Part shown: positions 3,644-27,682 of the stretch, piece by piece
Position numbering within the stretch: position 1 is the first letter of the stretch
How the letters are laid out: every line of letters begins with the position of its first letter
Source: Cycloclasticus sp.
GTDB taxonomy: Bacteria; Pseudomonadota; Gammaproteobacteria; Methylococcales; Cycloclasticaceae
Assembly (NCBI GenBank): GCA_040743155.1
Contig: JBFLJU010000001.1
Coordinates: 434,001-498,000 of the forward strand
DNA: 64,000 nucleotides
Direction of reading: 5' to 3'
Notes under the pieces: generated by a model
The model's input: only the letters and a program-made list of their open reading frames with translations
The model's database searches: none
Told to the model about the DNA's origin: nothing
Program-made: the position numbers and the translations under genes

Positions 3644-3896
3644 AGTTAACCCCTCTTAATTGTTTATTTAATTGTAGTGACTTAAATCATTAAACATTTA
3701 GTCATTTAATGACATAGATCATCTTATGAAAATATAGTACAGAAGAAAAGGCAAATACAGGGATCTACTTAAACGCTTTAAACGGACTAACGTTAGGTAT
3801 TTAAGTTGTAGCAAGGTGGGTGGTTTGGTGTGCTCGGCACGTTAAATGCCTCCTGTTTTTTTTGGTTAGAACTAAGTGATTTTATCGAGAGGGAAA

Positions 3897-4889
3897 ATGA
3901 AATTTCACACATTATTAATACCGTTTACTTGTGTAATGCTCGGAGCTTGTGAAGCACCTTTGGTGCTAGATGGCGTTGAGCAATCAAAAACAGAAGCCAT
4001 CCATCGTACAGACCGTATTCAGGCGGTAGCCTCATCAGGCAATGACATTGTTGTTGCTGGTATTGGCTTTATTTTGAATTCTAGTGATTCAGGAGAAACA
4101 TGGAGTCGTACCCAACCCGTGGGGTTACCGGCCTTTATTAGCGCAACGATTTGCCCTAACAAAGATCAAGTGGTTGTATCAGCTGAGAAGCAAGCGTGGG
4201 TATCAACCGATAGCGGTAAAACATGGCAAGCAAATGATTTAGCAACTGAAGAGGCACCACAGTTTCTTAGTTGTTCAGCTGACAATAGGTTATGGGTTGC
4301 TGCGAGTTTTAGCACGATCTTAAATAGTACTGATCAAGGACGAACTTGGCAGCAAACGACATTTGATGAAGATCTCATTCTTACGTATATAAATTTCTTT
4401 GATGCGCAAAACGGTATAGCCGTGGGTGAGTTTGGTAGTGTTTTTAGTACTGTGGACAGTGGCGAGAACTGGGTTCAAAAAGACGAACCAATTCCAAACG
4501 ACTTTTTCCCATTATCGGTTACTTTCGCTGACAGTTTACATGGTTGGGTGGGTGGTTCTAGTGGGGTAGTTTTCCAGACTAGCGATGGTGGGAGCACTTG
4601 GAGAAGAGAGGCAACCGGTACAGATGCACCTATTTATGGTTTGTCGGCCAGTAAACTTGGTGTGTTTGCGGTAGGTGGTTTTGGAACATTTCTGGAAAGA
4701 AAACAGGGGCCGAATGAAGTGGCTATTTGGCAAGACTCAACAACGGTTGAGACAAGGTCTTATTTGCGTGCTCTTACACCCTTAGGTGATAAGGCGCTCA
4801 TTTTAGGTGGGGGGGCAGGTACATTACAGGCATTGATTAATGGTGGTTTGGGGTATATGTCAATTGCCAACATTAAGGGCGGAGAATAA
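3897..4889 (+). CDS. YCF48/BNR-repeat beta-propeller lipoprotein
   Basis: About 330 residues. The chosen ATG at 3897 has a GAGAGGG Shine-Dalgarno at the right distance; a GTG 21 bp upstream lacks one. The start yields a lipoprotein signal with lipobox LGAC near residue 19, so the protein is probably anchored in the outer membrane. Repeated Asp-box-like motifs (SSDSGETW, STDSGKTW, STDQGRTW, TVDSGENW, TSDGGSTW) mark the blades of a YCF48/HCF136-like beta-propeller. It is the first gene of a tight operon with the RND pump (2-bp gap) and is followed by DUF1302 and DUF1329 genes. Such propellers are often assembly factors; the exact role is unknown. Confidence 0.85.
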   Translation: MKFHTLLIPFTCVMLGACEAPLVLDGVEQSKTEAIHRTDRIQAVASSGNDIVVAGIGFILNSSDSGETWSRTQPVGLPAFISATICPNKDQVVVSAEKQAWVSTDSGKTWQANDLATEEAPQFLSCSADNRLWVAASFSTILNSTDQGRTWQQTTFDEDLILTYINFFDAQNGIAVGEFGSVFSTVDSGENWVQKDEPIPNDFFPLSVTFADSLHGWVGGSSGVVFQTSDGGSTWRREATGTDAPIYGLSASKLGVFAVGGFGTFLERKQGPNEVAIWQDSTTVETRSYLRALTPLGDKALILGGGAGTLQALINGGLGYMSIANIKGGE

Positions 4890-4891
4890 TC

Positions 4892-7231
4892 ATGGGTGCT
4901 ATAACAAAGCAACTTAAAAAAATTGACCGTCTGGTGTTTGCATTTCCTAAAGTGACTGCATTGATCATTTTGGCGATTAGTACATTCTTTGCGATGCAAA
5001 TTCCAGGGGTTAAGATGGTATCTAACTTTGCCGATTTATTACCGCAAGAACACCCCTATATTCAAACACATAACACGCTTACCGAAACGTTCGGTGGCGC
5101 GAATACGGTGATTGTGTCGCTAAAAGTAGACGAAGGGACTATTTTTACTAACGACGTGTTGAGCAGAATTAAACGCTTAACCGACAAAGTCGATGCGTTG
5201 CCTGCTGTGAATCATAATTTAGTTAATAGCTTAACGCATAGAAATACTCGTCGAGTGTGGTTAAACGAATATGGAACCATGAAGTCTGCGCCGTATTATG
5301 ACCCACTTAAAGAGCATTATTCTGAAGAAGAGTTGCAGGCGATGCAAAATCAGGTTGTGGCGAATCCGCGCGTGTATGGCCTATTAGTTTCGCCAGATCT
5401 TAAATCTGCACTCATAAAAGGTACGCTAAATGAGGGTGACTTAGACTATGAAGAAGTCTTTAATGCGTTGGCAAAACTTAGGAATGAAGAAAAAACTGAT
5501 GGGTTAACAATCTATGCCAGTGGCCAACCAGTATTAGTAGGCTGGGTAACAAGTTATGTTAGTGAGGTCATTCAAATTTTTGGCTATACCTTAGCCATTT
5601 TATTGATTTTGTTGGTAGCGTATTTTAGAAAGTTCTATGGTTTACTGTTACCCCTTATTGGTATCGCCTTGACGACGACTTGGGGCTTGGGAATGTTGTC
5701 GTTGTTGGGCTATAACCTAGATCCATTGATGCTAGTTGTACCATTCCTTGTATCTGCAAGGGCTATGTCGCACGGTGTTCAAATAGTGGAACGCTTTTAT
5801 ACCGAACTGGGTGAAAGTGGGGATAAACAAACAGCCGCACGTAATACCTTTGAGGGTTTGTTTAGGCCAGGCTCTTTAGGGGTTATTTCAGACGCTATTG
5901 GTTTGTTGCTTATTTCATTAGGCTCTGTGCCAATTAACGATAAATTGGCGATATATGCGTCACTTTGGGCGGGTAGTGTGATTGTTACGGTGTTGATTTT
6001 ACTGCCTGTACTACTTGAGATTTTGCCGCACAAGCAAGCTAAAAACACTGAGCATGTGCTTTTGCAAAAATTATTTCCAGTTGTCTCCAAAATATCGTGC
6101 ACCCCCAACGGTGCACTAGCAACGTTATTTGTTTCGTTTGGTTTAGTGATTGGGGGTGCCTATTTAAGTTCAAAGGTGCAAATTGGTGAGGCAGAGTCAG
6201 GCTCTCCATTGCTGTATGCGGATCATGACTACAATATTTCTTCTAAGGCGATAAACCAAGCGTTTCCCGGTTCGGAAGAAATGTTTATTTTGGCGCACTC
6301 CGATAAAGAACATGGTTTGAAACACCCCGATGCGATTAAAGCATTGGCTGATTTTCAAAACTATATGATGCTTGATCCTGAATTAGGCGGCACCAAAGGG
6401 TTGCCAGACTTGCTCTCTCAAGCCAGTCGGATTATCCGAAATGATGATCCGCGTTGGTTGGTGTACCCAAAAGATGAGTTTGAATCGGGTGGCCTAATGT
6501 TCGCTTATATGATGTCGAGTCCCATTCCGGGGGCCCTGTTAGAGTTTATTGATCCAGATGAACAAAACGCCAATATTGTTTTCTATTATAAAGATCATAA
6601 AGGTGAAACGATTCGCCGTGCTATCCATATGGTTAAAGAATGGAGCAATAGTGCAGCGGCACAAGTAGAGGGTTTCTCGCTTAAATTAGCGGGTGGCTTA
6701 ATTGGTGTAACGGCGGCGGTTAATGAAGCGTCTTACCAAACCAACGTGATAGTTATCCCCTTGGTTTTTTTGCTTATATTGGTATTTGTTACTGCATTTT
6801 ACTGGTCTATCCATGCGGGTTGGCTAATGTTGCTCGCGATGGGTTTTGCAACAACGTTAACGTATGCCTACATGGGCATAGTTGGGTTGGGTATTAACGT
6901 GAATACCGTACCTATCTTGGCTGCGGGCATTGGTATTGGTGTGGATTATTCCATCTACATTATGGATAAAATTAAAGAGCAGTACGCTAAGCTCGGTAAC
7001 TTTGAGGCGGCTATTCAAAAAGCGATTAATACCACCGGTGTCGCAATTGGTTTCACTGCTTTTTCACTCATCGCGGGTGTCATTATGTGGGTGCTGTTAT
7101 CAACCATGAGGTTTCAAGCGGATGCAGCTATGTTGTTAATTGTTATGTTGCTGCTCAACGCCTTGGCCGCTATGTTCTTAGTACCTGCATGGGTTATGAC
7201 ATTCAAACCAAAGTTTATTGTGGAGAAGTAA
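4892..7231 (+). CDS. RND-superfamily (MMPL-type) transporter
   Basis: A 779-residue inner-membrane protein with two repeats, each of one transmembrane helix, a large periplasmic loop and five more helices. The MMPL-type motif GIGIGVDYSIYIMDKI lies near residue 685, with the proton-relay Asp in GVDY. At about 780 residues it is shorter than tripartite HAE1 pumps and fits the HAE3/hopanoid-exporter-like group, which moves lipids or other hydrophobic molecules. It starts 2 bp after the YCF48-like gene. Together with the DUF1302 and DUF1329 genes it forms a module often seen in degraders of hydrophobic compounds. Substrate and direction are unknown. Confidence 0.88.
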   Translation: MGAITKQLKKIDRLVFAFPKVTALIILAISTFFAMQIPGVKMVSNFADLLPQEHPYIQTHNTLTETFGGANTVIVSLKVDEGTIFTNDVLSRIKRLTDKVDALPAVNHNLVNSLTHRNTRRVWLNEYGTMKSAPYYDPLKEHYSEEELQAMQNQVVANPRVYGLLVSPDLKSALIKGTLNEGDLDYEEVFNALAKLRNEEKTDGLTIYASGQPVLVGWVTSYVSEVIQIFGYTLAILLILLVAYFRKFYGLLLPLIGIALTTTWGLGMLSLLGYNLDPLMLVVPFLVSARAMSHGVQIVERFYTELGESGDKQTAARNTFEGLFRPGSLGVISDAIGLLLISLGSVPINDKLAIYASLWAGSVIVTVLILLPVLLEILPHKQAKNTEHVLLQKLFPVVSKISCTPNGALATLFVSFGLVIGGAYLSSKVQIGEAESGSPLLYADHDYNISSKAINQAFPGSEEMFILAHSDKEHGLKHPDAIKALADFQNYMMLDPELGGTKGLPDLLSQASRIIRNDDPRWLVYPKDEFESGGLMFAYMMSSPIPGALLEFIDPDEQNANIVFYYKDHKGETIRRAIHMVKEWSNSAAAQVEGFSLKLAGGLIGVTAAVNEASYQTNVIVIPLVFLLILVFVTAFYWSIHAGWLMLLAMGFATTLTYAYMGIVGLGINVNTVPILAAGIGIGVDYSIYIMDKIKEQYAKLGNFEAAIQKAINTTGVAIGFTAFSLIAGVIMWVLLSTMRFQADAAMLLIVMLLLNALAAMFLVPAWVMTFKPKFIVEK

Positions 7232-7387
7232 TCATAAGTTCAAATCATTGATTTGGTGAAAATTTAAGTGGTAAAAGCGCTCAAAAAGTTGTTGCTGTTT
7301 TTTTGCGTTGCAATATCAAAGGCAGCATTAGGGGAAGCTTATAGGTAGTAAGTTTTTTTGAAATTAAAAAAAGAGTAGGGAGACACT

Positions 7388-9355
7388 ATGAAGAATAAGA
7401 AATGGCATTCTAGGCCATTAGCTACTATTGCACTGATAGGGATGGCGGTACTGCCCTTGTCGCAACAAGCGGCTGCGGGCATTAATACAGGTGATGATAC
7501 GTTGGAGATCAGTGGTTTCGTCGAAAATGCAACGTACTTTCGTGACCACGTTGGGTTGTCAAAATTCCGCAATACACTGCAATTAGAAGGTACAAAAATA
7601 CTGGGTGGTATCGGTGCGTTTGATGAAGTTAGTATTAATGGCACTTTTCGTGCGACATATGACGGAGTTTATGACCTGAATTCTGATGAATATGGTGATG
7701 GTGCTGGTGGTGCAGTATTTTTAACGCCGGTAATACCTGCGACCCCTGCTGGTTTTAATGTAGCGCCAGGGGAAGGTATTCCGCTAGGTAACCTTACAGC
7801 ACGCGGGCTTGATAATTCTGGTCTAGAAATTTTAGGTCAAAGTCGCCATAGCACCTCGGGAAATGGTGTGGAGTTGGTTGTTCCTGTGCGTCCGTGTGAT
7901 AAAGACTCGCGTGGTTGTATCGGCGGGTATATGGATGACACATTAAATGATTTACGTTATTCAGATTTCAATGATCGTTGGGATTTTATACGTGAGTTAT
8001 ATGTAAACGCTGTGATTGATATGGACAGTGGTACGACTTTCAATTTAAGTGTTGGTAAAAAACAAGAAGTTTGGGGTCGTACTGATTTATTCCGCGTATT
8101 AGATGTCATCAACCCGGTTGATTATTCTAGGAATAATATTTATGACGAATTAGAAGATACGCGTATTCCTTTGTGGATGGCAACTGCTGAATGGCAGTTT
8201 GGTGCGAATAACTTATTGGATGACATGAATGTTCAGTTTGTTTGGATATTTGACAAGTTTAGGCCTAATAAGTTGGGTCAATCCGGTACGCCTAATCAAA
8301 TTCTAGGTGCGGGCGAATTGTTTCGTTCGTTAAACCTATGCTGGGAAGAAGGCTGTACGACATCTGTATTTGCCGGTGCGGGACCGGATGATGCGAGTAT
8401 TGCAACTAACTTTGGCCCTGGTGTTCTTGGTGTTCGTGATGCACACCTGCCTGACTGGTCTCTGGATAACACACAGTTAGGTGTGAAATTTGAGGGGGTT
8501 TATGGCGATATTGGCTTTTCATTAAATGCATTCTATACACGATCTCAGCTACCTTCATTGAGAGGGGGTATTCCATCAGACAATCCATTTACAGGGTCAG
8601 TTCTAACAGAGAGTGGTCCCTATGGTAGTATGATTGAATCTCAGTTTTATAGCCATTTAATATCATTTGATATTCACTTTCCACGTGTCTTTTTAATGGG
8701 TGGTTCGCTGGATTATTATTCAGACCCACTAAAAACGGCATTCAGAGTTGAAACAGCATGGACGAAAGGTGAGGAGTTTGCTGACACGACTCAAGAGAGG
8801 CTTTTTTCTGAATCTGAAGTGGCGCGTTGGGTAATTGGTGCGGATCATAATTTGTTTATTCGCTCGATTAATAAAAATAAAGCGTTCTTAATTTCTTTCC
8901 AAACTTTTGGGCAGCATATTCTGCAACATCAACGTGAAACCCATAAATTTGGTGAATCTGGCATGCCTGATAGAAAAGACAATTATATTTCTACCTTGTT
9001 AACCAAAGGCTGGTGGATGAATGACCGTTTTAGTGCACAAATAATTCAGGCTTACGATTGGGGTGCTCAGGCTTACGTGGTCTCACCATCTATTGACTGG
9101 TTGATTGATGATCATTGGCGTTTCCAGTTAGCTGCGAATATCAAGTTTGATAACGGTGCTGAAGATTTTTCTGACTGTACTAAATGTAATCCATTTGCAC
9201 CATTCACTGTCTCATCTGACCCTATTCATGCGACAGGTATGTCAGGCGATGCTGGTTTAGGTGGCTATGAGCCATTAGGTCGTTTCATTGACGGGCCTAT
9301 CGGTACGGCACGAAATGAAGATGAAATTCAAATGACAATTCGTTACCGCTTCTAA
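7388..9355 (+). CDS. DUF1302 family protein, probable outer-membrane beta-barrel
   Basis: A 655-residue exported protein with a signal peptide ending near AAAG at residue 30. The family hallmark is visible as YVNAVIDM followed by VGKKQEVWGRTDLFRVLDV and INPVDYSRN, near residues 205-245. The C-terminus ends in aromatic Phe (IRYRF), and alternating hydrophobic strands throughout suggest an outer-membrane barrel. It lies 156 bp downstream of the RND pump and upstream of its usual partner DUF1329. The family has no settled function; it is commonly co-induced with lipid, sterol or hydrocarbon catabolism. A porin-like role for a hydrophobic substrate is inference. Confidence 0.85.
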   Translation: MKNKKWHSRPLATIALIGMAVLPLSQQAAAGINTGDDTLEISGFVENATYFRDHVGLSKFRNTLQLEGTKILGGIGAFDEVSINGTFRATYDGVYDLNSDEYGDGAGGAVFLTPVIPATPAGFNVAPGEGIPLGNLTARGLDNSGLEILGQSRHSTSGNGVELVVPVRPCDKDSRGCIGGYMDDTLNDLRYSDFNDRWDFIRELYVNAVIDMDSGTTFNLSVGKKQEVWGRTDLFRVLDVINPVDYSRNNIYDELEDTRIPLWMATAEWQFGANNLLDDMNVQFVWIFDKFRPNKLGQSGTPNQILGAGELFRSLNLCWEEGCTTSVFAGAGPDDASIATNFGPGVLGVRDAHLPDWSLDNTQLGVKFEGVYGDIGFSLNAFYTRSQLPSLRGGIPSDNPFTGSVLTESGPYGSMIESQFYSHLISFDIHFPRVFLMGGSLDYYSDPLKTAFRVETAWTKGEEFADTTQERLFSESEVARWVIGADHNLFIRSINKNKAFLISFQTFGQHILQHQRETHKFGESGMPDRKDNYISTLLTKGWWMNDRFSAQIIQAYDWGAQAYVVSPSIDWLIDDHWRFQLAANIKFDNGAEDFSDCTKCNPFAPFTVSSDPIHATGMSGDAGLGGYEPLGRFIDGPIGTARNEDEIQMTIRYRF

Positions 9356-9367
9356 GGGACGCTAATA

Positions 9368-9397
9368 AAGCAGCATTCACTTAGTTGAATGCTGCTT
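9368..9397 (+). other. Strong intergenic stem-loop between DUF1302 and DUF1329 genes
   Basis: A perfect 12-bp stem (AAGCAGCATTCA and its complement) with a 6-nt loop, 12 bp after the DUF1302 stop. There is no T run after it, so it looks more like an mRNA-processing or stability element that sets unequal expression than a full terminator. Confidence 0.6.
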
Positions 9398-9445
9398 AGG
9401 TAAAAACTCTAGGACTAAGTATTGATTTAAGGAGATTTAAATAAG

Positions 9446-10756
9446 ATGAGAAAAATGACAAAAAGTTTATTTGGCGCGGCGCTATTAAGTGTAGCTGCAA
9501 GTGCGTCGGCAGTGACGGATGCAGATATTGATAATTCGTTCCAACCATATACGAACGGCTTCCCCGTAGCAGACGGTGTTGTGGCTGGTTTGGTAATTAA
9601 TAAGGCTAATGTGGATAAATATGCAAGCGTCCTAGACGCTGGTATGGTTAAGCATATTAAAGATGATTGGGTAGAAATCACGGTTGGTGACTCACAGGAT
9701 ATTATCCTTAATCAAAGTTATATTGATGCCACTAAAGCGGGTTCTCAAAATGTAAAGCTTGGTGCTAAAGTTGGCGAAATAGAAGGTTATGTTGCTGGCC
9801 GCCCATTCCCAATAGAGCCCAATCTAGATGACCCTCGTGCAGGTGAAAAAATGGCCTGGAACTTTCAGTACGGTTATAACTGGGGCGATGGCGCGGCTAT
9901 TTCACCGTTCTACTGGAAATACCGAAATATGAAAACAGCGCAGGTTGAACGGACAATTAAGTTTAATTTTTATTTCCTAAATTTAATGCACCGCGTGAAC
10001 CATGAGCCTAAACCTGAAATTACGCCGAACCCAAGTAAATTGTTCCGTGCTATTTATTTGAATGTATCAGAGCCTTTCGATGTTAAAAACACACAGTTGT
10101 TGATTCACCGTCATAAAAACGATTTAAAACGTGATAACGCTTGGTTGTACCTAGGTTTTCAACGTCGTGTGCGTCGTTTAGCAACGGGTCAAGTGACCGA
10201 CTCTTTCCTAGGTTCTGACATTATGATTGAAGACTTTGAAGGTTATAATGGCCGTATATCTGATATGAACTGGACCTTCAAAGGCACAAAAAACATGTTG
10301 TTGCCTGTGTATGATTCATCTAAACAAAAGCGTACCGATGAGTTTAAGGAATCTGATGGCTATACCTACACAACGTATCATGGGAAAGGCGGTTGTTTCC
10401 CAAACGTGAATTACTCATTAAGGAAAGTATATGTTGTAGAGTCTGTGCCGATTGACCCTAACCATCCAATAGGTAAACGTGTGCATTATATGGATGCGCA
10501 AACCTTCACATTGCCACGTACGGTCACTTTTGATCGTCAGGGTAAATATTGGAAATCCTGGATGATCGGTCAAGCACACCCAGATACTCACTTACCTGCG
10601 AACAAGGGTAGTGGTGTTGCAATTGACGATGCCTTTGGCATGATGGATGTGCAGGCCATGCATTGTACAACTGGCCAGTTTAAAGGTATTGTTGATCCAA
10701 CATTGGTTAAAAAGAAACAATTTAGCGTGCAGTATATGCGTTCATTTGGTAAGTAA
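9446..10756 (+). CDS. DUF1329 family periplasmic protein (LolA/LolB-like fold)
   Basis: A 436-residue secreted protein with a signal peptide cleaved near ASA at residue 22. The DUF1329 signature is seen in RHKNDLKRDNAWLYLGFQRR followed by VRRLATG and DSFLGSDIMIEDFEGYNGRI, residues 215-270. The family is structurally related to outer-membrane lipoprotein carriers, so it may ferry a hydrophobic ligand through the periplasm. It completes the set of outer-membrane DUF1302, periplasmic DUF1329, inner-membrane RND pump and propeller. Family assignment is firm; function is inferred. Confidence 0.85.
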   Translation: MRKMTKSLFGAALLSVAASASAVTDADIDNSFQPYTNGFPVADGVVAGLVINKANVDKYASVLDAGMVKHIKDDWVEITVGDSQDIILNQSYIDATKAGSQNVKLGAKVGEIEGYVAGRPFPIEPNLDDPRAGEKMAWNFQYGYNWGDGAAISPFYWKYRNMKTAQVERTIKFNFYFLNLMHRVNHEPKPEITPNPSKLFRAIYLNVSEPFDVKNTQLLIHRHKNDLKRDNAWLYLGFQRRVRRLATGQVTDSFLGSDIMIEDFEGYNGRISDMNWTFKGTKNMLLPVYDSSKQKRTDEFKESDGYTYTTYHGKGGCFPNVNYSLRKVYVVESVPIDPNHPIGKRVHYMDAQTFTLPRTVTFDRQGKYWKSWMIGQAHPDTHLPANKGSGVAIDDAFGMMDVQAMHCTTGQFKGIVDPTLVKKKQFSVQYMRSFGK

Positions 10757-10772
10757 TTTTTTATAGTAGGGA

Positions 10773-10994: not shown

Positions 10995-12356
10995 ATGGGT
11001 AAGAAACAAGATATAGATTTTGCAAGTTATTTAATTGACGATAAAGAGAACGGCATTTATCGGGCGGACAGAAAAGTATTTACTGATCCAGAAATTTATG
11101 AATTAGAAATGAAATACATCTTTGAAAAAAACTGGGTGTATTTGTGTCATGAAAGTCAAATAAAAAACCCCAATGATTTTTTCACTGTATATATGGGTAA
11201 ACAACCCGTTATTGTGACGCGTGATAAAGACGGTGAAATTCATGGTTTCATTAATGCCTGTACTCACCGTGGCGCGCAGCTTGTTAATACTGGGTGCGGC
11301 AACAAAAGAAAAATGGTCTGCCCTTTCCATATGTGGACGTTTGATATGAAAGGCAAGCTGCTTGACTGTGGTGAGCACAAAGGCAACGTTGGTTATAGTG
11401 ATAGTTTTAGTAAGGATGACTTAGGTCTACAAAAAATTGGTAATATCGAAAGTTACCGAGGTTTTGTATTCGGTGTTTTAGATGATAATGCGTGCACTCT
11501 AAAAGAGTTCTTAGGTGAAACGACGCAGTCAATTGATTTAATGGTTGACCAGGCCGATGAAGGTCTTGAGATTCTGCCAGGAAAAACGACTTATACATAC
11601 AATGGTAACTGGAAGTTACAAGCCGAGAATGGCGTTGATGGTTATCATTTAGAAGCAATTCACGGCAACTATGTGATGACAATTGCAAACCGTAAGAAAC
11701 TGCAAGCCGAAAATGACGCGGTTAAATCTGCTGACGTAGGTGCATTGGCTAGTGGTACTGCTGAAGAGCTTCCAGGTGGGTATTATCATTTTGGTAATGG
11801 TCATGTGATGTTATGGGCAAAATTTCCAAATGCTTCTGATCGGCCGCTTTATGTGGGTGGAAAGATGCCTGAGTTGCAGAAGAAGTTTGGTGAGCAAAGA
11901 GCTGAATTTATGGGCGGCTATTTACGAAACACCTGTATCTATCCAAATATGTTTTTAATGGATCAAATGAGCACGCAAATTCGCCATTTCCGTCCTGTTT
12001 CAGTCGATAAAACTGAAATTACTACTTATTGTATTGCCCCTGTGGGTGAGTCTGATGATGCGCGAGAACGTCGTATTCGCCAATATGAGGATTTCTTTAA
12101 CGCAACGGGTATGGCAACGCCAGATGATTTAACGGCATTCAATAATAGCCAGCTTGGCTTTATGGGTGAAAAGGCGCGTTGGAGTGATATGTGTCGTGGT
12201 GCGAAAAATGTTGTTGAAGGTCCTGGGCCATATGGAAAAGCTTTTGGGATCAACCCTGAAGAATCAGGTACAAACCTTGAAGATGAAGGGCTGATGGTAG
12301 CGCAGCATAAAAACTGGGCGGATATGATGAATAAAGCACAGGCGGAGGAGAAATAA
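10995..12356 (+). CDS. Rieske aromatic-ring dioxygenase, large (alpha) subunit, benzoate/anthranilate type
   Basis: A 453-residue oxygenase subunit matching the BenA/AntA/XylX group in length and in the N-terminal run DPEIYELEMKYIFEKNWVYL. The Rieske [2Fe-2S] ligands are Cys89/His91 (CTH) and Cys109/His112 (CPFH). The mononuclear iron triad is visible as Asp215, His218 and His223 in the D-x2-Y-H-x4-H pattern. The usual CPFHGW motif reads CPFHMW here, an uncommon Met at position 113. The beta subunit follows directly. No BenC-type reductase or cis-diol dehydrogenase follows, so electrons must come from elsewhere. The substrate is probably an aromatic carboxylate, but this is not certain. Confidence 0.9.
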   Translation: MGKKQDIDFASYLIDDKENGIYRADRKVFTDPEIYELEMKYIFEKNWVYLCHESQIKNPNDFFTVYMGKQPVIVTRDKDGEIHGFINACTHRGAQLVNTGCGNKRKMVCPFHMWTFDMKGKLLDCGEHKGNVGYSDSFSKDDLGLQKIGNIESYRGFVFGVLDDNACTLKEFLGETTQSIDLMVDQADEGLEILPGKTTYTYNGNWKLQAENGVDGYHLEAIHGNYVMTIANRKKLQAENDAVKSADVGALASGTAEELPGGYYHFGNGHVMLWAKFPNASDRPLYVGGKMPELQKKFGEQRAEFMGGYLRNTCIYPNMFLMDQMSTQIRHFRPVSVDKTEITTYCIAPVGESDDARERRIRQYEDFFNATGMATPDDLTAFNNSQLGFMGEKARWSDMCRGAKNVVEGPGPYGKAFGINPEESGTNLEDEGLMVAQHKNWADMMNKAQAEEK

Positions 12357-12357
12357 G

Positions 12358-12849
12358 GTGGATGCTTCTACAAAAGAACAAGCAATAGACGTAATTATTA
12401 ATGAATCGGCTGCTCTTGACCATAGGCAGTGGGATGAATGGGTTAATTTATATACAGAAGATGCGACATATTGGATGCCCGCTTGGATTGATGAGCATAC
12501 TTTAGTCAGTAACCCTAAAAGAGAAATTTCATTGATTTATTATGGAGACCGTTCGGGCTTGGAAGACAGGGTCTTCAGAATTCGTACAGAGTTGTCGTTT
12601 GCGACGACGCCACTTCCACGCACTTGCCATATGAATTCAAATTTTAGAGTGTCTGAAAATGATGCGGGTGAAATAGTTATTCATTCGTCTTGGGTGACGC
12701 ATTGTTATAGTTTAAAAGTTTCACGTGCTGCATTTGGTGTGCAAGAGCATCGTTTACGTAAAACCGACGATGGTTTGAAGATTTGTTTTAGAAAAATAAC
12801 CCTACATAACGATATGGTTGATACAGTGCTGGATGTTTATAATATTTAG
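12358..12849 (+). CDS. Rieske dioxygenase small (beta) subunit
   Basis: A 163-residue SnoaL-like-fold subunit of the BenB/AntB/XylY type. Recognisable stretches are LDHRQWDEWVNLYTEDATYW near residue 20 and the family's FRIRTELSFATTP near 73. It starts at a GTG, one base after the stop of the alpha-subunit gene, with GGAGGAG inside the end of that gene as ribosome binding site. Together the two would form an alpha3-beta3 dioxygenase. A terminator follows within 25 bp, confirming a two-gene unit without its own reductase. Confidence 0.9.
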   Translation: MDASTKEQAIDVIINESAALDHRQWDEWVNLYTEDATYWMPAWIDEHTLVSNPKREISLIYYGDRSGLEDRVFRIRTELSFATTPLPRTCHMNSNFRVSENDAGEIVIHSSWVTHCYSLKVSRAAFGVQEHRLRKTDDGLKICFRKITLHNDMVDTVLDVYNI

Positions 12850-12871: not shown

Positions 12872-12907
12872 AAAAAGCCCGCGTAATAATTTGCGCGGGC
12901 TTTTTTT
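12872..12907 (+). terminator. Rho-independent terminator after the Rieske operon
   Basis: AAGCCCGCG arm and CGCGGGCTT arm around an AT-rich loop, followed by seven Ts. Confidence 0.88.
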
Positions 12908-18423: not shown

Positions 18424-19422
18424 ATGAGTATTGAGATTTCGGCAAAATCCATACAGCCAGTAAGGCTGACCTACGGTAACTTGGAAGAGCGTTTTGGTGG
18501 CAAAAAGCCGGCATCACGTTATCAAGAGGCGGTATACGATGTGCAACCAACTGCTAACTTTCATTACCGTCCCCTCTGGGATAAAAATCATGAGATTTAC
18601 GATAAGAGTAGAACCGCTATTGTAATGGAAGATTGGTATAGCTTTACCGATCCTCGTCAGTACTACTACGGCACATACACGATTGCGCGTGCTAAACAGC
18701 AAGATGTTGCTGAGCATAACTTTGCCTTTGTTGATAAGCGTGATTTGTTTGACGCTATGCCAGAGGCGGTAAAGCAAGCGACCCGTGAAATTTTGGTGCC
18801 GTTACGCCATGTTGAGTGGGCCGCGAATATGAATAACTGCCAAATAACAGACGAATGTTATGGTGCGAATTTTAGTGCGCTGGCAATGTTTAATGCGATG
18901 GATAGGTTGGGCATGGCTCAGTATGTGACTCGCTTAGGCTTGTTACTGGATGGTAATGAGGAAACTGCGCTAGATGCAGGTAAGCAAGCTTGGATGGAAG
19001 CGCCTGAGTGGCAGAAGCTTCGGCATGCCATTGAAGATATGTTTGTTCTTGATGATTGGTTTGAGCTAATGATTGCGCAAAATTTTGTATTGGATGGGTT
19101 GATATTTCCGCTCCTATACGATCGCTTTGAGAAAAAGCTAACGGCGGAGGGTGGTGCGACCGTCGCGATGTTAACCGAGTTTATGGATGATTGGTATAAA
19201 GAAACTGTCCGTTGGACGAATGCCTTGGCAAAGGTTACTGCAAAAGAGTCCGATGAAAACAAGGCCTTATTATCATCGTGGCTGTCTAAGTGGATCAATC
19301 GCTTAACCGAAGCGGTTGAGCCCATTGCAACCAAAGCGTTTGGGGCTGAAGGGGTGAATGAGCTCGCAGAAGTGAAACAAGAATTGTTAGCCCGTTTGGC
19401 TAAGCAAGGTCTTACGGTTTAA
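18424..19422 (+). CDS. dmpL: Phenol hydroxylase component P1 (oxygenase beta subunit)
   Basis: A 332-residue beta subunit of the (alpha-beta-gamma)2 phenol hydroxylase. Family landmarks include LTYGNLEERFGGKKPASRYQ near residue 15 and the YSFTDPRQYYYGTYTIARAK block near 72. It has the ferritin-like fold of the alpha subunit but no iron ligands. A GGAGAG ribosome binding site precedes it, and P2 follows after 13 bp. Length matches DmpL/TomA1 (about 330). Confidence 0.93.
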   Translation: MSIEISAKSIQPVRLTYGNLEERFGGKKPASRYQEAVYDVQPTANFHYRPLWDKNHEIYDKSRTAIVMEDWYSFTDPRQYYYGTYTIARAKQQDVAEHNFAFVDKRDLFDAMPEAVKQATREILVPLRHVEWAANMNNCQITDECYGANFSALAMFNAMDRLGMAQYVTRLGLLLDGNEETALDAGKQAWMEAPEWQKLRHAIEDMFVLDDWFELMIAQNFVLDGLIFPLLYDRFEKKLTAEGGATVAMLTEFMDDWYKETVRWTNALAKVTAKESDENKALLSSWLSKWINRLTEAVEPIATKAFGAEGVNELAEVKQELLARLAKQGLTV

Positions 19423-19435
19423 TAAGGAGAAAAGC

Positions 19436-19714
19436 ATGTCAGCTAAAAAAAATACAGTGTTTTTAATTGTGCAAGATAACGATGATGCGCGTCCAATTAT
19501 TGAAGCCGTTGAGCAAGATAATCCAGAAGCCAACATACAATACCAGCCGGGCATGGTGCGTATGGAAGCAGCAGGGCGATTAATTGTTCAGCGCGAAACA
19601 GTTGAAGAAAACATTGGCCGTGAATGGGACGTACAAGAGTTGCACTTAAATTTAGTGTCATTAGCCGGAAACGTTGATGAAGACGAAGATAAATTTGAAC
19701 TTAGCTGGCACTGA
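19436..19714 (+). CDS. dmpM: Phenol hydroxylase component P2 (MmoB/DmpM-type effector)
   Basis: A 92-residue cofactorless regulatory protein that binds the oxygenase and couples electron use to hydroxylation. The MmoB/DmpM family pattern is visible in FLIVQDNDDARPIIEAVEQD near residue 9 and EENIGREWDVQELHLNLVSL near 58. It carries an AAGGAG ribosome binding site, and P3 follows 26 bp later. Confidence 0.93.
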   Translation: MSAKKNTVFLIVQDNDDARPIIEAVEQDNPEANIQYQPGMVRMEAAGRLIVQRETVEENIGREWDVQELHLNLVSLAGNVDEDEDKFELSWH

Positions 19715-19740
19715 TTGCCAGAAATATAGAGGATGAAATA

Positions 19741-21258
19741 ATGCCAGCAAAAAAGTTAAACTTACGCAAACGATACGAATTATTAACGCGAGGTATGGGT
19801 TGGGAAACGACGCATCAAAAAATGGATGATGTGTTTCCTTACGATTCATTTGAAGGAATCAAAATCACCGACTGGGATAAGTGGGAAGACCCATTCCGCT
19901 TGACGATGGACGCGTACTGGAAATTCCAAGCCGAAAAAGAGAAAAAACTGTACGCCGTTATTGACAGCTTTGCTCAAAACAATGGCCAAACAAATTTGTC
20001 GGATGCGAGCTACTTAAGTGCTATTAAGTTATTTATTACGGGTGTTACGCCAATTGAATACGCCGCGCACCGTGGTTTCGCTCATTTGGGCCGTCATTTC
20101 CGTGGTGATGGTGCGCGTGTCGCTTGTCAAATGCAGGCTATTGATGAGCTGCGCCACCAGCAAACTCAAGTGCATACTATTAGTCATTATAATAAGCATT
20201 TTAATGGCTTGCATGACCCTTTTTATCAGTTTGATCGAGTGTGGTATTTATCGGTTCCTAAGTCATTTGCTGAAGACGCATTGTCATCAGGGCCCTTTGA
20301 ATTTATTACGGCCATTTCATTTGCATTTGAGTACGTCTTAACCAACTTGTTATTTGTACCCTTTATGTCAGGTGCGGCTTATAACGGTGATATGGCGACG
20401 GTAACATTTGGTTTCTCGGCGCAGTCGGATGAGTCTCGACATATGACCTTGGGCTTAGAGATTATTAAATTTATGCTTGAGCAGCATGAAGATAATTTGC
20501 CCATCGTGCAGCGTTGGATGGATAAGCATTTTTGGCGTGCTTACCGCCTATTAAGTCTTGTTTCAGCTATGCAGGACTATATGTTGACCAATAGCCCGAT
20601 GTCATGGAAAGAAGCGTGGGATGTGTACTTCGTTGAAAACGGCGGTGCATTATTTGAAGATTTGTCGCGTTATGGTTTAAGAATGCCAAAATACCATGAG
20701 TTAGCAACGGCTGAAGCAGACCATATCAGTCATCAAATTTGGTCTGTATTTTGTTCGCTGGGTAATGCGACTGGCTTTCATACTTTCTTACCAACAGAAG
20801 AAAAGATGGCTTGGTTATCTGAGAAGTATCCCGATACATTCGACAAGTATTATCGCCCACGGTTTGAATACTGGGCTGAACAGAAAAAAGCAGGTACCTT
20901 TGAATATCAAAAAGGCTTGCCGCAACTTTGTCAGGTATGCCAAATTCCAATGGTGTTTACAGAAGTGCAAACAGACCCAATGCAGATCAGTTACCGAGTG
21001 ACTGAGCACGCTGGAGATAAATATAATTTCTGTTCAGATGGCTGTAAAGACATCTTTGAACACGAGCCAGAAAAATATACCCAAGCTTGGTTACCGGTAC
21101 ATCAAATTTATCAAGGCAACTGTGGTGGTCCAACGCTTCCGGAAGTGCTTGAGTGGTATAAATTCACGCCTGAAGATAGTGGCGATTACATCGGGTCCCA
21201 AGATCATGCGCGCTGGGAAGAATGGAAAGGCGCGGATAAAACGGCAAAACAAGCGTAG
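19741..21258 (+). CDS. dmpN: Phenol hydroxylase component P3 (diiron oxygenase alpha subunit)
   Basis: A 505-residue catalytic subunit that hydroxylates phenol to catechol with O2. All six diiron ligands can be placed: Glu106, Glu136 and His139 (DELRH), then Glu197, Glu231 and His234 (DESRH). A C-terminal YHS-like zinc-type region has paired cysteines in CQVCQ near 396 and FCSDGCKDIFEHEP near 427, as in DmpN. Length and gene order match the dmp/phe/tom family. The enzyme needs P1, P4, P2 and the P5 reductase, all encoded here in order. Confidence 0.95.
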   Translation: MPAKKLNLRKRYELLTRGMGWETTHQKMDDVFPYDSFEGIKITDWDKWEDPFRLTMDAYWKFQAEKEKKLYAVIDSFAQNNGQTNLSDASYLSAIKLFITGVTPIEYAAHRGFAHLGRHFRGDGARVACQMQAIDELRHQQTQVHTISHYNKHFNGLHDPFYQFDRVWYLSVPKSFAEDALSSGPFEFITAISFAFEYVLTNLLFVPFMSGAAYNGDMATVTFGFSAQSDESRHMTLGLEIIKFMLEQHEDNLPIVQRWMDKHFWRAYRLLSLVSAMQDYMLTNSPMSWKEAWDVYFVENGGALFEDLSRYGLRMPKYHELATAEADHISHQIWSVFCSLGNATGFHTFLPTEEKMAWLSEKYPDTFDKYYRPRFEYWAEQKKAGTFEYQKGLPQLCQVCQIPMVFTEVQTDPMQISYRVTEHAGDKYNFCSDGCKDIFEHEPEKYTQAWLPVHQIYQGNCGGPTLPEVLEWYKFTPEDSGDYIGSQDHARWEEWKGADKTAKQA

Positions 21259-21299
21259 TGGGTTATTGAAAAAGAAGCATTAGTTTTTAGGAGATAAAA

Positions 21300-21659
21300 A
21301 TGGCAGTTATTGCAAAAGACGGATATGTCGATATCGTCAGAGATAAGGTAGAAAATTTTCACGGTAATCAATTAGTGTATGTTGGTTGGGATGACCACTT
21401 GTTGTTTTCAGCCGCATGGGCTTTTCCGGTGCCGCCCGAGATGCCATTTCAGGCGTTTATTTCAGATGTCATGTCTGTTTCATTTAGTGACCACCCTGAT
21501 TATAAAAATATTGATTGGGCAGCGGTTGAGTGGGTGTTAGATGGGGAATCATTTGCGCCTACATTAGATAACTCATTAAAAGAAAACGGCGTTGTCCACA
21601 AGTCGCTGATTCGATTTAAAACACCTGGTTTGATGGGTATAAATGGCACAAGGCTATAA
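21300..21659 (+). CDS. dmpO: Phenol hydroxylase component P4 (oxygenase gamma subunit)
   Basis: A 119-residue DmpO/TomA4-type gamma subunit. It is recognised by length, position and the stretch NQLVYVGWDDHLLFSAAWAF near residue 25, followed by PPEMPFQAFI. It forms the hydroxylase together with P1 and P3. A TTAGGAGA ribosome binding site precedes the ATG; the reductase gene starts 3 bp after its stop. Confidence 0.92.
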   Translation: MAVIAKDGYVDIVRDKVENFHGNQLVYVGWDDHLLFSAAWAFPVPPEMPFQAFISDVMSVSFSDHPDYKNIDWAAVEWVLDGESFAPTLDNSLKENGVVHKSLIRFKTPGLMGINGTRL

Positions 21660-21662
21660 ATA

Positions 21663-22730
21663 ATGAGCTATGAAGTAACCATTGAACCATTGGGTGTAAC
21701 CATTGAAGTTGAGGATGATCAATCAATTCTTGATGCTGCGCTGAGACAGGGTGTTTACTTGCCGCATGCTTGTGGTCACGGACTTTGCGGTACTTGTAAA
21801 GTAGATGTGCTTGAAGGCGATGTTGAGATTGGTGAGGAAGCGTCTCCATTTGCGCTGTTGGACTTTGAACGTGATGAAGGTAAGTGCTTAACGTGTTGTA
21901 CAAAACCTGAGTCTGACTTAGTAATAGAAGCAGATGTTGAAGAAGAACCGGATGCTGCCAATATTCCGGTTCGTGACTTTGTTGGTAAAGTCATTAAAAT
22001 AGAAAAGTTAACACCTAGAATAGTTGGTGTTTTTCTTGAAGTTGAAGGCGATGAAGTGGAGTTTCAGTCGGGCCAATATGCAAACCTGCATATTCCTGGC
22101 TTAGACACGCCTCGTCCATTTTCGATGGCGCAGTCACCTAACGAGAAAATGGTGCTTGAGTTTGATATAGCACTCATTCCAGGCGGTGAAGGGACGACGT
22201 GGATTCACAATGAATTAAAAGTTGGGGATACACTTGAATTCTCTGCGCCTTATGGGCATTTTTTCCTCAGAACATCTGATGACAAACCAATGGTGTTTTT
22301 CGGTGGAGGCTCAGGTTTAGCGAGTCCAAAGTCAATGGTGCTGGATTTGTTGGAGTCAGGTGATGCACGTGAGATTATTTTGTACCAAGGTGCAAGAAAC
22401 CTTGAAGAATTGTATTATAAGGATTTGTTTGAAGAATTAGCGCTTAAGCATGCTAACTTTACTTATGTCCCCGGCCTCTCAGGGCCAGATATTGAACCTG
22501 AATGGAATGGCCCGACCGGCTATATCCATGAGGTGGCTAAAGAACATATGGGGGGTAAATTTGAAGGCTATCGTGCTTATATGTGTGGACCTCCGATGAT
22601 GATTGACGCGTGCATTACCATGTTGATGCGTGCTCGTTTATTTGAAAAAGATATGTTCATGGAAAAATTCTTTAACGCGGCTGATGCGGAGGCCGAAAGT
22701 AAAAAGAGTCCGCTGTTTAAAAATATTTAG
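21663..22730 (+). CDS. dmpP: Phenol hydroxylase component P5 (FAD/[2Fe-2S] reductase)
   Basis: A 355-residue NADH reductase that passes electrons to P3. The plant-type [2Fe-2S] ligands appear in ACGHGLCGTCKV near residue 36 with the fourth Cys in CLTCC near 76. The FAD motif is RPFSMAQSP near 154, the NAD site FFGGGSGLASPKSMV near 212, and the C-terminal MCGPPMM near 310. Domain order and length match DmpP. It may also serve the neighbouring tmo enzyme, which lacks its own reductase; that is inference. Confidence 0.95.
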   Translation: MSYEVTIEPLGVTIEVEDDQSILDAALRQGVYLPHACGHGLCGTCKVDVLEGDVEIGEEASPFALLDFERDEGKCLTCCTKPESDLVIEADVEEEPDAANIPVRDFVGKVIKIEKLTPRIVGVFLEVEGDEVEFQSGQYANLHIPGLDTPRPFSMAQSPNEKMVLEFDIALIPGGEGTTWIHNELKVGDTLEFSAPYGHFFLRTSDDKPMVFFGGGSGLASPKSMVLDLLESGDAREIILYQGARNLEELYYKDLFEELALKHANFTYVPGLSGPDIEPEWNGPTGYIHEVAKEHMGGKFEGYRAYMCGPPMMIDACITMLMRARLFEKDMFMEKFFNAADAEAESKKSPLFKNI

Positions 22731-23114: not shown

Positions 23115-24035
23115 ATGGCAATGACAGGTATTTTACGTCCAGGACATGTTCAACTTAGAGTGTTGGATATGGAAGAAGCATTGAAGCACTATTGTGAAGA
23201 TATAGGGTTGATTGAAACTGATCGTGATGATGAAGGTCGCGTGTATTTGAAGTGTTGGGATGAACAAGATAAGTTTTCTGTGGTGTTAGAGCCTTCAGAT
23301 CGCTCCGGCATGGATCATATGGCATTTAAAGTTGCCACAGAGCAAGACTTGTGGCGTTTTGAGTCAAACATTAAAAAGTTTGGTATTGAAACAACTAGGG
23401 TGGCTTCTGGTGAGTTAAATGGTTGTGGTGAAAGGGTTCGTTTCGTTGCGCCCGCAGGCCATACCTTCGAACTATTTGCTGAAAAAGAACAAGTAGGTAA
23501 TGGTCTTCCAACGACTAATCCACCACCTTGGCCAAGAGGCTTGAAAGGAATGGAACCTATTCGCTTCGACCACTGTTTGTTGTACGGCGACAATTTTGAT
23601 GAAAACATAAAGTTCTTTACCGAAGCGTTAGAATTTCAACTCACTGAGCAAATCGTTGATGGAGAAATGCAGTTAGCTGCCTTCTTAACATGTAGTACTA
23701 AGGCACACGATATCGCATTTATTCGCTCAGAAGAATCCGGTAAATTGCATCATGCTTCATTCTTATTGGGCTCTTGGGAAGGTGTTTTAAAAGCAGGTGA
23801 TATTATTTCTATGGAAGATATTCCACTAGAAACGGGCCCAACACGCCATGGTTTAACACGCGGCCAAACCATTTACTTCTTTGATCCATCAGGTAACCGT
23901 AACGAAGTGTTTGCGGAAGACAGTTATTTCTACCCAGATTCGCCTGTATTGACTTGGACGGCAGATAATATTGGTCAGGCGATTTTCTATCATTCACGTC
24001 AATTGGTGGAAAGCTTTATGGGCGTAACGTCTTAA
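23115..24035 (+). CDS. dmpB: Catechol 2,3-dioxygenase (extradiol, meta cleavage)
   Basis: A 306-residue type I extradiol dioxygenase that opens catechol to 2-hydroxymuconic semialdehyde. Two vicinal-oxygen-chelate domains are present. The Fe(II) ligands are His153 (RFDHCLLY), His213 (LHHASF) and Glu264 (NRNEVFAED), with the usual spacing. An AGGAGA ribosome binding site precedes the ATG. Length equals XylE/DmpB (307). The degenerate tail at 13116-13205 is from a second enzyme of this family. Confidence 0.95.
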
Positions 24036-24039
24036 TCGT

Positions 24040-24459
24040 ATGTCTATTAGCGTCGCAACAAAAAACATTTCAACAGAGTCCGCCAGTACTGCAGTACTGG
24101 CGGCTGTCGAAAAGGCTAAAGAGATAGGTATCAGTATTAATGTCTCTGTCGTAGACAGTTCAGCGATAGAAATTGCATTTTTACGGATGAATAACTCATT
24201 TCTCCCTTCAATGAGTATTGCCAAGGACAAAGCTTATACAGCTGCTGGTTTTGGTTTTCCCACAATGCAATGGGGGGAAATACTTCAAGGGACGACTCAA
24301 TTACAAGCCGGGATCACGGTCAGGCCACACGTGGTAACTTTTGGTGGTGGTTTGCCTGTTATTGATGGTGAAGAGCTTATAGGAGCGATTGGTGTCTCGG
24401 GTGGCTCTGAAGAGGAAGATATTCTCTGCGCGCAAGCGGGTATAGATGCCATCAGTTAA
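24040..24459 (+). CDS. GlcG/HbpS-family (DUF336) heme-binding-like protein
   Basis: A 139-residue GlcG/HbpS protein recognised from the pattern ALAAVEKAKEIGISINVSVV-like N-terminus, AKDKAYTAAGFGFPT near residue 66, and the C-terminal GVSGGSEEEDILCAQAGIDA. It starts 4 bp after the catechol dioxygenase, so it is part of the operon. In classical dmp/xyl operons nothing lies at this place, but naphthalene lower operons end with a related gene (nahX). HbpS relatives bind heme or help in oxidative-stress sensing; its job in ring cleavage is not established. Confidence 0.85.
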   Translation: MSISVATKNISTESASTAVLAAVEKAKEIGISINVSVVDSSAIEIAFLRMNNSFLPSMSIAKDKAYTAAGFGFPTMQWGEILQGTTQLQAGITVRPHVVTFGGGLPVIDGEELIGAIGVSGGSEEEDILCAQAGIDAIS

Positions 24460-24498
24460 GTATTGTTAATTATTTTTTAAGCAAAAGGTTTGAAAATC

Positions 24499-25950: not shown

Positions 25951-25959
25951 GGATAAAAA

Positions 25960-26745
25960 ATGGATCAAGATAAAATAATACAATATGGCGACGAACTTTA
26001 TAACGCGTTAATTACGCGTCAAACGATTGCGCCAATTACCGAGCGCTCTCCAGAAGTGACAATTGAAGATGCTTATGCCATCCAAAACCAAATGATTTCT
26101 CGTCGTATTGAGGCGGGTGAAAGTATTGTTGGTAAGAAAGTAGGTTGTACCAGTCAAGTGGTTATGGACATGTTAAATGTTAATCAACCGGACTTTGGTT
26201 ATTTGTTAACGGATATGGTGTATTCAGAAGGTCAAGATATTCCTATCTCTGAGACAATGATCCAACCAAAAGCAGAAGGCGAGATTGCCTTTGTGCTTAA
26301 AAAGGACCTATGTGGCCCAGGTCTAACTAATGCGGACATTTTGGCAGCAACTGAGGCCGTTATGCCTTGTTTTGAAATTGTTGACTCAAGAATTAAAGAT
26401 TGGAAAATTAAAATTCAAGATACCGTTGCGGATAACGCATCATGTGGTTATTTAGTATTAGGTGGCACAGCGGTTGATCCACGAAAAGTTGATTTAAGCG
26501 TTTGTGGTCTTACCTTAGAAAAAAATGGTGAATTGATGTACACCGGTGCGGGTGCGGCTGCCTTAGGCTCGCCTGTTAACGCAATGACTTGGTTGGCTAA
26601 TACAATGGGCGCTTTAGGCGTTACATTGAAAGCGGGTGAAGTTATTCTATCAGGCGCTTTATGTATGATGGTTGATGCTAAAGCGGGCGACTCCATGCGT
26701 GTGAGTGTCGGCGGTATCGGCTCTGCTTCAGTCCGGTTCGTTTAA
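25960..26745 (+). CDS. dmpE: 2-oxopent-4-enoate (2-hydroxypenta-2,4-dienoate) hydratase
   Basis: A 261-residue hydratase of the FAH-like decarboxylase/hydratase family; it adds water to 2-oxopent-4-enoate to give 4-hydroxy-2-oxovalerate. The family motifs GKKVGCTSQVVMDML near residue 55, PKAEGEIAFVL near 98 (metal-binding Glu pair) and FEIVDSRIKDWKIKIQDTVA near 132 are clear. It is a paralogue of the decarboxylase at 28719; these two enzymes normally form a complex that channels the unstable dienol. Confidence 0.93.
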   Translation: MDQDKIIQYGDELYNALITRQTIAPITERSPEVTIEDAYAIQNQMISRRIEAGESIVGKKVGCTSQVVMDMLNVNQPDFGYLLTDMVYSEGQDIPISETMIQPKAEGEIAFVLKKDLCGPGLTNADILAATEAVMPCFEIVDSRIKDWKIKIQDTVADNASCGYLVLGGTAVDPRKVDLSVCGLTLEKNGELMYTGAGAAALGSPVNAMTWLANTMGALGVTLKAGEVILSGALCMMVDAKAGDSMRVSVGGIGSASVRFV

Positions 26746-26769
26746 GAGAAAGTTTTAGGAGATTTATAG

Positions 26770-27675: not shown

Positions 27676-27682
27676 GAGACTG

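Follow-up and report, generated by a model that had tools for sequence, protein, structure and literature searches.

How water-insoluble aromatic compounds move across the outer membrane, the periplasm and the inner membrane during biodegradation is, to our knowledge, poorly understood, and four neighbouring genes of Cycloclasticus sp. raise the question of whether their products could form such a route. The genes lie on the forward strand of contig JBFLJU010000001.1 (assembly GCA_040743155.1), within a stretch of 64,000 nucleotides (positions 434,001 to 498,000) which was analysed as a whole and is called the window here; window coordinates are counted from its first letter. A sequence-only reading had proposed that a propeller lipoprotein, an inner-membrane pump, an outer-membrane barrel and a periplasmic carrier were encoded together, and had regarded the set as the best candidate in the window for an undescribed system. 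The latter view did not survive comparison with the literature, since AmeABCD of Castellaniella defragrans 65Phen, described in 2018, consists of the same four families (DUF1302, DUF1329, COG4447/YCF48-type and RND, the last being of HAE3 type in AmeABCD) and has a deletion phenotype (PMC6394551), and related proteins are the subject of PMC10866462 and PMC13101534. We consider it probable that the set in the window forms a four-part RND transporter of the AmeABCD type and belongs to a lineage linked with monoaromatic catabolism; cargo would pass from the pump (D) by way of C and B to the barrel (A), probably outward. The system is known in kind; the link of a distinct lineage to a pathway, the module structure, the type of barrel and a signature in the fourth transmembrane segment (TM4) of the pump were not found in the papers searched and appear to be new.

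The four genes are real and had been named correctly, as all are open reading frames (ORFs) on the + strand with Pfam scores above the curated cut-offs. Gene C (3897..4889), encoding a YCF48-type beta-propeller (AmeC-like), matches PSII_BNR with 60.4 bits (2.2e-16), and by sequence its matches in the PDB are to Ycf48 (5ojp, 3.3e-16). The ORF spans 3876-4889 with a GTG start, and the ATG at 3897 is the probable start. That C is a lipoprotein is supported by the lipobox MLGAC-EAPL; the pattern CE[ASGN]xL after a small residue occurs in 55 of 77 C proteins, the window counted in, and the remaining 22 mostly have different residues after the cysteine or an N-terminus that could not be read. Gene D (4892..7231) encodes a 779-residue RND/MMPL (HAE3-like) pump (AmeD-like; Pfam MMPL, 85.9 bits, 3.2e-24), for which the best NCBIfam model, TIGR00921 (HAE3), scored 110.4 bits, below its cut-off of 351.9. 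Its hydropathy peaks, as read, correspond to twelve membrane segments and two long loops, and its solved relatives by sequence and profile are MmpL3, MmpL4/5, HpnN and Patched/NPC1-related proteins. Gene A (7388..9355; AmeA-like) encodes the DUF1302 outer-membrane beta-barrel (120 bits, 2e-34), and gene B (9446..10756; AmeB-like) the DUF1329 periplasmic LolA-like carrier (242.2 bits, 1.4e-71), which is extended at its N-terminus by about 100 residues. Gene C runs to 4889 and D begins at 4892; the gap before A is 156 bases long and that before B 90.

The combination had been said to recur in degraders, and the comparison with related loci shows that the four families do recur as an envelope set. 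A scan of GTDB genomes with the pump, from which the best 80 of 143 relatives were kept, yielded Gamma-, Beta- and Alphaproteobacteria and a few other groups. All four families occur together in 35 of the 37 related loci that extend 5 kb or more to either side of the pump; the two exceptions are L116, without A and B, and L141, without B. The former is a locus of a Thiotrichaceae metagenome-assembled genome (MAG) which has C and D of this lineage and neither A nor B within about 10 kb. C stands directly upstream of D in 67/70 loci, and the three others (L152, L159, L174) do contain C, next to a pump that is split or whose open frame overruns C. A is followed directly by B in 60/63 loci; in L150 and L155 the two are reversed, B before A, and L141 is again the locus lacking B. 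The C-D and A-B pairs vary in order and orientation relative to each other (C-D-A-B, A-B-C-D, or an inverted B-A beside C-D), which suggests that the set is built of two modules, C with D and A with B. Correlations of pairwise distances over 59 loci were 0.866 for C-D, 0.750 for A-B, 0.725 for A-D, 0.579 for A-C, 0.410 for B-D and 0.324 for B-C. These distances fit two modules only partly and to that extent speak against them, A-D being almost equal to A-B, and the module reading therefore rests mainly on gene order. Among viral contigs, eight stretches matched the patterns and none was confirmed as a viral relative.

Co-occurrence of the four families is far beyond chance, also genome-wide. 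The pump lineage, delimited by a cut of more than 220 bits, chosen once the scores had shown a gap from about 221 down to 190 bits, is present in 34 of 249 phylum genomes. DUF1302 is found in 34/34 of these and in 35/215 of the others, 33 of them weakly; above 380 bits the figures are 33/34 and 2/215. These genomes are related to one another, so that the significance of the counts is not to be taken literally, and the per-genome numbers are lower bounds, with at most four or five candidates scored in each. For individual loci a phylum sample was used, made up of 40 out of the 50 match rows that scored over 200 bits and 40 out of the 71 that scored less, hand-picked with at most four per genome and with the genome of the window left out. 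C lies in the fetched locus (up to about 8 kb on each side) of 40/40 pumps that carry the TM4 signature described below, and A and B pass the score cut in 31 of these 40 loci, with A just under the cut in two more (L220, L221). In L227, L237 and L238 B was detected and A was not, and L239, L243, L244 and L246 hold C-D alone, L239 being cut by a contig end. All seven genomes behind these loci have DUF1302 elsewhere, as in Pseudomonas putida, where PP_0765/0766 and PP_2018/2019 are split yet fitness-linked.

The pump lineage of the window is linked to the breakdown of monoaromatic (benzene/toluene/phenol-type) compounds. The markers used were phenol/benzene monooxygenase, catechol 2,3-dioxygenase, 2-oxopent-4-enoate hydratase, acetaldehyde dehydrogenase and DmpG, and at least one was present in 33/53 loci of the window lineage (at least 14 kb long) versus 0/18 loci of other lineages in the genus, a comparison with a small bias in that lineage loci extended up to 22 kb and control loci up to 20 kb. 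Leaving out the monooxygenase reductase gave 32/53 versus 0/18, and counting the DmpR/XylR-type regulator as well gave 39/53 versus 2/18. It must be noted as a point against the association that 20/53 lineage loci have no pathway marker when the regulator is left out. One locus of another lineage, L076 (9.1 kb), has a hydratase match and falls under the length limit of the marker count. In the phylum sample markers were found in 1/38 signature loci (L235) and 0/34 others, with one more (L222) under the length limit. A Pseudomonas veronii plasmid (L178) has this pump, its gene divided over two reading frames, together with a YCF48-related gene next to dmpKLMNOP and a sigma-54 regulator. The pump gene of that plasmid (L178 14001-16078 and upstream) is unannotated, and the neighbouring dmp genes are annotated throughout. 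One pump lineage is in this way tied to one pathway across several proteobacterial classes, and a literature search with most subscription journals outside its scope returned no paper on the monoaromatic lineage. The cargo had been suggested to be a hydrocarbon, a sterol or a lipid. On the basis of gene neighbours only, monoaromatics suit the lineage better as substrate than a sterol or lipid.

The barrel and carrier roles proposed for A and B are both in agreement with the modelled structures. AlphaFold2 (AF2), supplied with 36 sequences, gave a model of A with a predicted local distance difference test score (pLDDT) of 79.9 and a predicted template modelling score (pTM) of 0.82. It is nearly all strand, with about 18 strands of at least seven residues and a longest helix of 14 residues (308-321). 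When compared with solved structures by VIA-align, the A model matched OccK2 best (Z 23.8, root mean square deviation (rmsd) 2.9 over 300), followed by vanillate-bound OpdK (23.7) and a BenF-like porin (23.6), with sequence identities of 5-10%. Chitoporin (23.4) and MOMP (23.2) are tied within 1 of the Occ matches, AlgE reached 22.0, and Foldseek's own ranking placed OmpF-type porins first, with high rmsd. FadL-type channels were not among the 50 listed matches, and are not thereby excluded. On this model A is a porin/Occ-like barrel. A role of the TolC kind was considered and rejected: TolC-type outer-membrane factors have a long helical tunnel, the modelled barrel of A is built of long strands and lacks long helices, and Pfam gives DUF1302 only. 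OpcA has about 10 strands. The about 18 long strands counted in A are more than that, and the OpcA-like fold inferred in the 2018 Ame paper is doubted. The model of B (AF2 pLDDT 90.1, pTM 0.88) has the LolA-like half-barrel fold, as it matches LolA3 of Porphyromonas gingivalis (9tp6; Z 24.7, rmsd 2.1 over 238) and the DUF1329 protein 4z48 (Z 23.5). These matches cover residues 125-435, and the stretch before 125 lies outside them.

We picture D as a proton-driven inner-membrane pump, akin to lipid-exporting MMPL/HAE3 proteins, that would draw its hydrophobic cargo, a substrate or an intermediate, out of the membrane. The propeller lipoprotein C may dock on D and aid the hand-over of cargo, which the LolA-like B would shield through the periplasm and deliver to the Occ-like A for release through the barrel. 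Docking order, substrate, direction and proton coupling are what we infer here. Net outward movement is likely, and would ease toxicity during operation of the neighbouring pathway; movement inward or in both directions is less likely. We favour export for two reasons, the description of characterised RND transporters as exporters and the phenotype in Castellaniella, where deletion of ameABCD resulted in poor growth on limonene and other hydrocarbon monoterpenes, normal growth on perillyl alcohol, aldehyde and acid, and tolerance of less limonene (PMC6394551). All four Ame proteins were enriched in cells grown on alpha-phellandrene (PMC4109377). A number of observations do not sit easily with an outward transport system. 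Occ barrels, which the model of A resembles, are known to serve uptake. Real-time efflux of Nile Red was equal in the Castellaniella mutant and the wild type (PMC6394551), and an insertion in the DUF1329 gene (ameB::Tn5) cut growth, that on polar perillic acid included (PMC4109377). The P. putida genes are needed on Tween 20, which suits uptake or localisation of an esterase as well as efflux (PMC10866462), and disruption of the YCF48 gene phnL in Delftia lowered vesicle formation, which suits remodelling of the envelope (PMC3958437).

A rival reading is an uptake route, in which A would admit the aromatic compound, B would carry it across the periplasm and D would drive its delivery to the inner membrane, feeding the pathway. 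We find this unlikely, even if the pairing of the lineage with the pathway, the Occ/BenF-like model of A and the requirement for PP_0765/0766/2018/2019 in growth on Tween 20 (PMC10866462) are all in its favour, and four sets in one genome of 2.56 Mb would hardly be needed for general efflux. YCF48, MMPL and DUF1329 proteins are also well expressed in a benzene-degrading enrichment (PMC13101534), and the same paper, citing Shetty et al., reports that deletion of a DUF1329 gene in Delftia impaired growth on phenanthrene. Against inward transport, HpnN, AcrB, MmpL5 and MmpL3 are described as antiporters coupling proton influx to substrate outflux (PMC10466384), and deletion of ameABCD slightly raised, and did not lower, the accumulation of Nile Red in cells treated with carbonyl cyanide m-chlorophenylhydrazone (PMC6394551). 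It may also be speculated that D and B move lipid or lipoprotein to the outer membrane by an RND-LolA route, and that effects on hydrocarbon growth are indirect, through changes in membrane or vesicles or through esterase placement. Such remodelling of the outer membrane seems to us the least probable of the explanations weighed here, since a lineage that is paired with a single catabolic pathway points to cargo specific to that pathway. It draws on the LolA fold modelled for B, on the resemblance of D to MmpL3 and HpnN, on the presence of DUF1302 and DUF1329 proteins in Delftia nanopod/vesicle preparations (PMC3110197) together with the phnL phenotype, and on the weak LolA/DUF1329-like match near 35/40 propeller-less pumps of the phylum sample, of which L259 lies beside a gene of 1937 residues that, as we read its sequence, begins like a synthetase. 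The AmeABCD-type transport system remains our preferred explanation for the set.

The pumps that accompany a propeller are set apart by their membrane residues. D has S293-H294..Q297 in TM4, D334 in TM5 and D685-Y686 in TM10, and Ser-His-x-x-Gln in TM4 together with Asp-Tyr in TM10 was found in all 92 propeller-lineage pumps first aligned; the split or shortened pumps of L152, L153 and L154 had failed the length/score filter for this set, and TM4 was not readable in the broken pump of L088. Three related pumps without a propeller have Ala-Asp or Ala-Ser in TM4, then His. On plasmids the signature is present in 10/10 intact pumps having a propeller, and the one without (Haliovirga) reads DY..H, a test that is not fully independent since the C profile held six plasmid propellers and 2/10 of the plasmid pumps were also in the 92-row set. 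In the phylum sample a propeller lies near 40/40 SH..Q pumps versus 0/40 other pumps; near the latter no propeller match appeared even at an E value of 1, with six of the 40 loci under 14 kb, so that a propeller could lie outside. Asp or Glu occupies the TM4 position in 38/40 of these other pumps, the exceptions being L259 (GH..Q) and L277 (SY..Y). A tree of 26 signature rows and 18 others, for which 14/40 signature and 17/40 other pumps of the phylum sample were picked by hand, placed all signature pumps on one branch with support of 100/100. They therefore reflect one evolutionary event, seen many times in the 40 versus 40 comparison, the p-values of which ignore relatedness, and signature and propeller are inseparable by this test. 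An Asp in TM5 was considered for the universal signature and rejected, being present in 92/92 of the first set and in 31/40 phylum pumps and missing in 3/10 plasmid homologues.

In MmpL3 the pairs Asp256-Tyr646 and Asp645-Tyr257 have been proposed as proton carriers (PMC10466384). By profile search, TM10 of D aligns to both MmpL3 Asp-Tyr helices, and TM4 was left out of the printed MmpL3 alignments. One may tentatively speculate that propeller-linked pumps form an RND branch of their own whose proton path has been rewired, in which the change from the acid of most other HAE3/MmpL pumps to an invariant Ser-His..Gln, with Asp-Tyr in TM10 retained, arose together with capture of the propeller, the propeller may gate or couple transport, and each sublineage is specialised for the cargo of one catabolic pathway, monoaromatics in the case of the window. 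The acid is also lost in three pumps without a propeller, L259, L277 and L036 (AS..H, in the genome of the window), which tells against taking the signature strictly. L259, with its GH..Q pump, weak LolA-like neighbour and no propeller match, is possibly an intermediate form. The proposal predicts that the Ser-His in TM4 is essential and that the propeller acts on the pump, and, if true, it would define a propeller-coupled RND class separate from the well-known tripartite efflux pumps. In practice the short TM4 signature finds these pumps in genomes. No paper on it was found in the literature searched, in which no search was aimed at the motif itself.

The sequence-only reading had further stated that the set is encoded with no enzyme, which is doubtful because an adjoining Rieske dioxygenase (10995-12849, + strand) probably belongs to the same transcription unit. 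It starts 238 bp after B and consists of a BenA-like oxygenase alpha subunit (10995..12356; TIGR03229, 580.5 bits, below the cut-off of 780.95) and a BenB-like beta subunit (12358..12849; Pfam Ring_hydroxyl_B, 2.3e-40). The BenA-like gene is kept beside the set in the Cycloclasticus relatives with a long enough locus (L068-L071). A simple consensus scan of the interval from B to the dioxygenase returned no terminator-like site on the + strand and flagged a hairpin (10787-10802) on the - strand only. The first + strand terminator-like hairpin outside coding genes is a strong one at 12872..12905, a 15-pair stem with a T run and the likely end of the operon, and a transcription unit of 3897-12849 is therefore probable. 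In L068, L069 and L070 a gene of about 355 residues (in L068 of the fatty-acid-desaturase family) lies between B and the dioxygenase, a place without an ORF in the window, and a second one of about 518 residues (in L068 HpaB-type) follows the dioxygenase, at the place of the AraC-type regulator (13331-14278) of the window.

Upstream of the operon, a sigma-54-like -24/-12 site (3835..3849, + strand; CGGCAC-N5-ATGC) has two mismatches to TGGCAC-N5-TTGC. Three relatives of the genus (L101, L102, L103) have a site with one mismatch at about the same place, and sites with at most one mismatch occur in 11/71 related upstream regions versus a mean of 0.7 (maximum 3) in 200 mononucleotide shuffles. 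Sites with two mismatches are at chance level over the whole window (63 found, 64.75 expected), and that at 3835-3849 is therefore a hint only. Immediately upstream of the window, at L037:8304-10004, a gene encodes a DmpR/XylR-type regulator with 49% identity to two proteins of this type.

Outside the set, the window carries dmp-like phenol/benzene monooxygenase genes on the + strand (18424..22730), with beta (18424-19422), alpha (19741-21258) and reductase (21663-22730) genes that are 50, 66 and 55% identical to DmpL, DmpN and DmpP as annotated on the P. veronii plasmid; beta and alpha match Pfam Phenol_Hydrox. These are followed on the same strand (23115..28708) by meta-cleavage pathway genes for catechol 2,3-dioxygenase, aldehyde dehydrogenase, hydratase, acetaldehyde dehydrogenase and DmpG aldolase, at 57-68% identity to the marker proteins used. 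A small gene beside them (24040-24459) falls into one cluster with an HbpS-like protein that accompanies the same pumps at 10 other loci. Besides the alpha subunit at 19741-21258, the window encodes another of phenol/methane-type monooxygenase (29944-31440; Phenol_Hydrox, YHS).

The nearest named loci are from Cycloclasticus MAGs, with pump identity up to 94%, and a pump of the window lineage at 89-100% identity is found in 7 of 18 genomes of the genus, a count that includes the host genome and several incomplete ones. The host genome is a single contig of 2.56 Mb and holds four sets. Besides C-D-A-B of the window there are L032 (C-D-A-B with a second B), L033 (C-D-A-B-B, beside a pyrroloquinoline quinone dehydrogenase and Rieske oxygenases) and L031 (A-B-C-D, beside glmS and ATP synthase genes); an A-B pair within a Rieske oxygenase operon (L030) lies about 17 kb from L031. 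The C protein of L032 is divergent, with PSII_BNR at 23.1 bits, under the cut-off of 27, and a weak BLAST match to C of the window. The pumps of the other three sets are 28-36% identical to that of the window, 28% for the set ordered A-B-C-D, and the four sets are therefore old lineages and not recent copies. A broken RND pump in set V was considered and rejected, as its "3 TAA" came from an extended match and the ORF is intact at 782 residues. Two further DUF1329 genes of the host genome (272994-273938 and 397689-398831; L034 and L035) have none of the other three families in the 20 kb covered, and that of L035 is the closest paralogue of B of the window (46%).

Compared with known systems, the set differs from the propeller-less HAE3/MMPL pumps (L036, L094, L096, L186 and most of L259-L298), which have no propeller match and no Ser-His in TM4. 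A DUF1302-like match lies near 15/40 of these pumps in the phylum loci, and a DUF1302 - pump - LolA-like trio without propeller on a Fusobacteriota plasmid (L186) extends the simpler trio beyond proteobacteria. DUF1302/DUF1329 genes also occur within a phenol hydroxylase cluster of Zoogloea oleivorans (PMC7012976). The "Nanopod" cluster of ORM2a, highly expressed in a methanogenic benzene-degrading enrichment and proposed to move benzene in a direction left open (PMC13101534), is similar in having YCF48-related, MMPL and DUF1329 proteins and a porin-like protein, and differs in its universal-stress and hypothetical proteins and its anaerobic host; DUF1302 is not named in the text. The P. putida genes PP_0765/PP_0766 and PP_2018/PP_2019 have been proposed to form a transport system, and AlphaFold contacts were strong for PP_2018, the periplasmic protein, on PP_2019, the efflux transporter, and weak for PP_0766 (DUF1329) on both PP_2019 and PP_0765 (DUF1302) (PMC10866462). 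They resemble the set in combining DUF1302 and DUF1329 with a periplasmic protein and an efflux transporter and differ in being split over two loci and in their Tween 20 phenotype, and PP_2018 is not called YCF48 in the relevant section of that paper. The closest likeness is to AmeABCD, with the same four families co-located with genes of hydrocarbon catabolism, a likeness drawn at the level of families. The order in the window is C-D-A-B, whereas A-B-C-D is called conserved in the Ame lineage (PMC6394551), and the neighbours are aromatic meta-cleavage and monooxygenase genes and not those for monoterpenes. Since gene order differs in the window and varies among its relatives, the set is described here as the same kind of system in a different lineage and not as an orthologue of AmeABCD.

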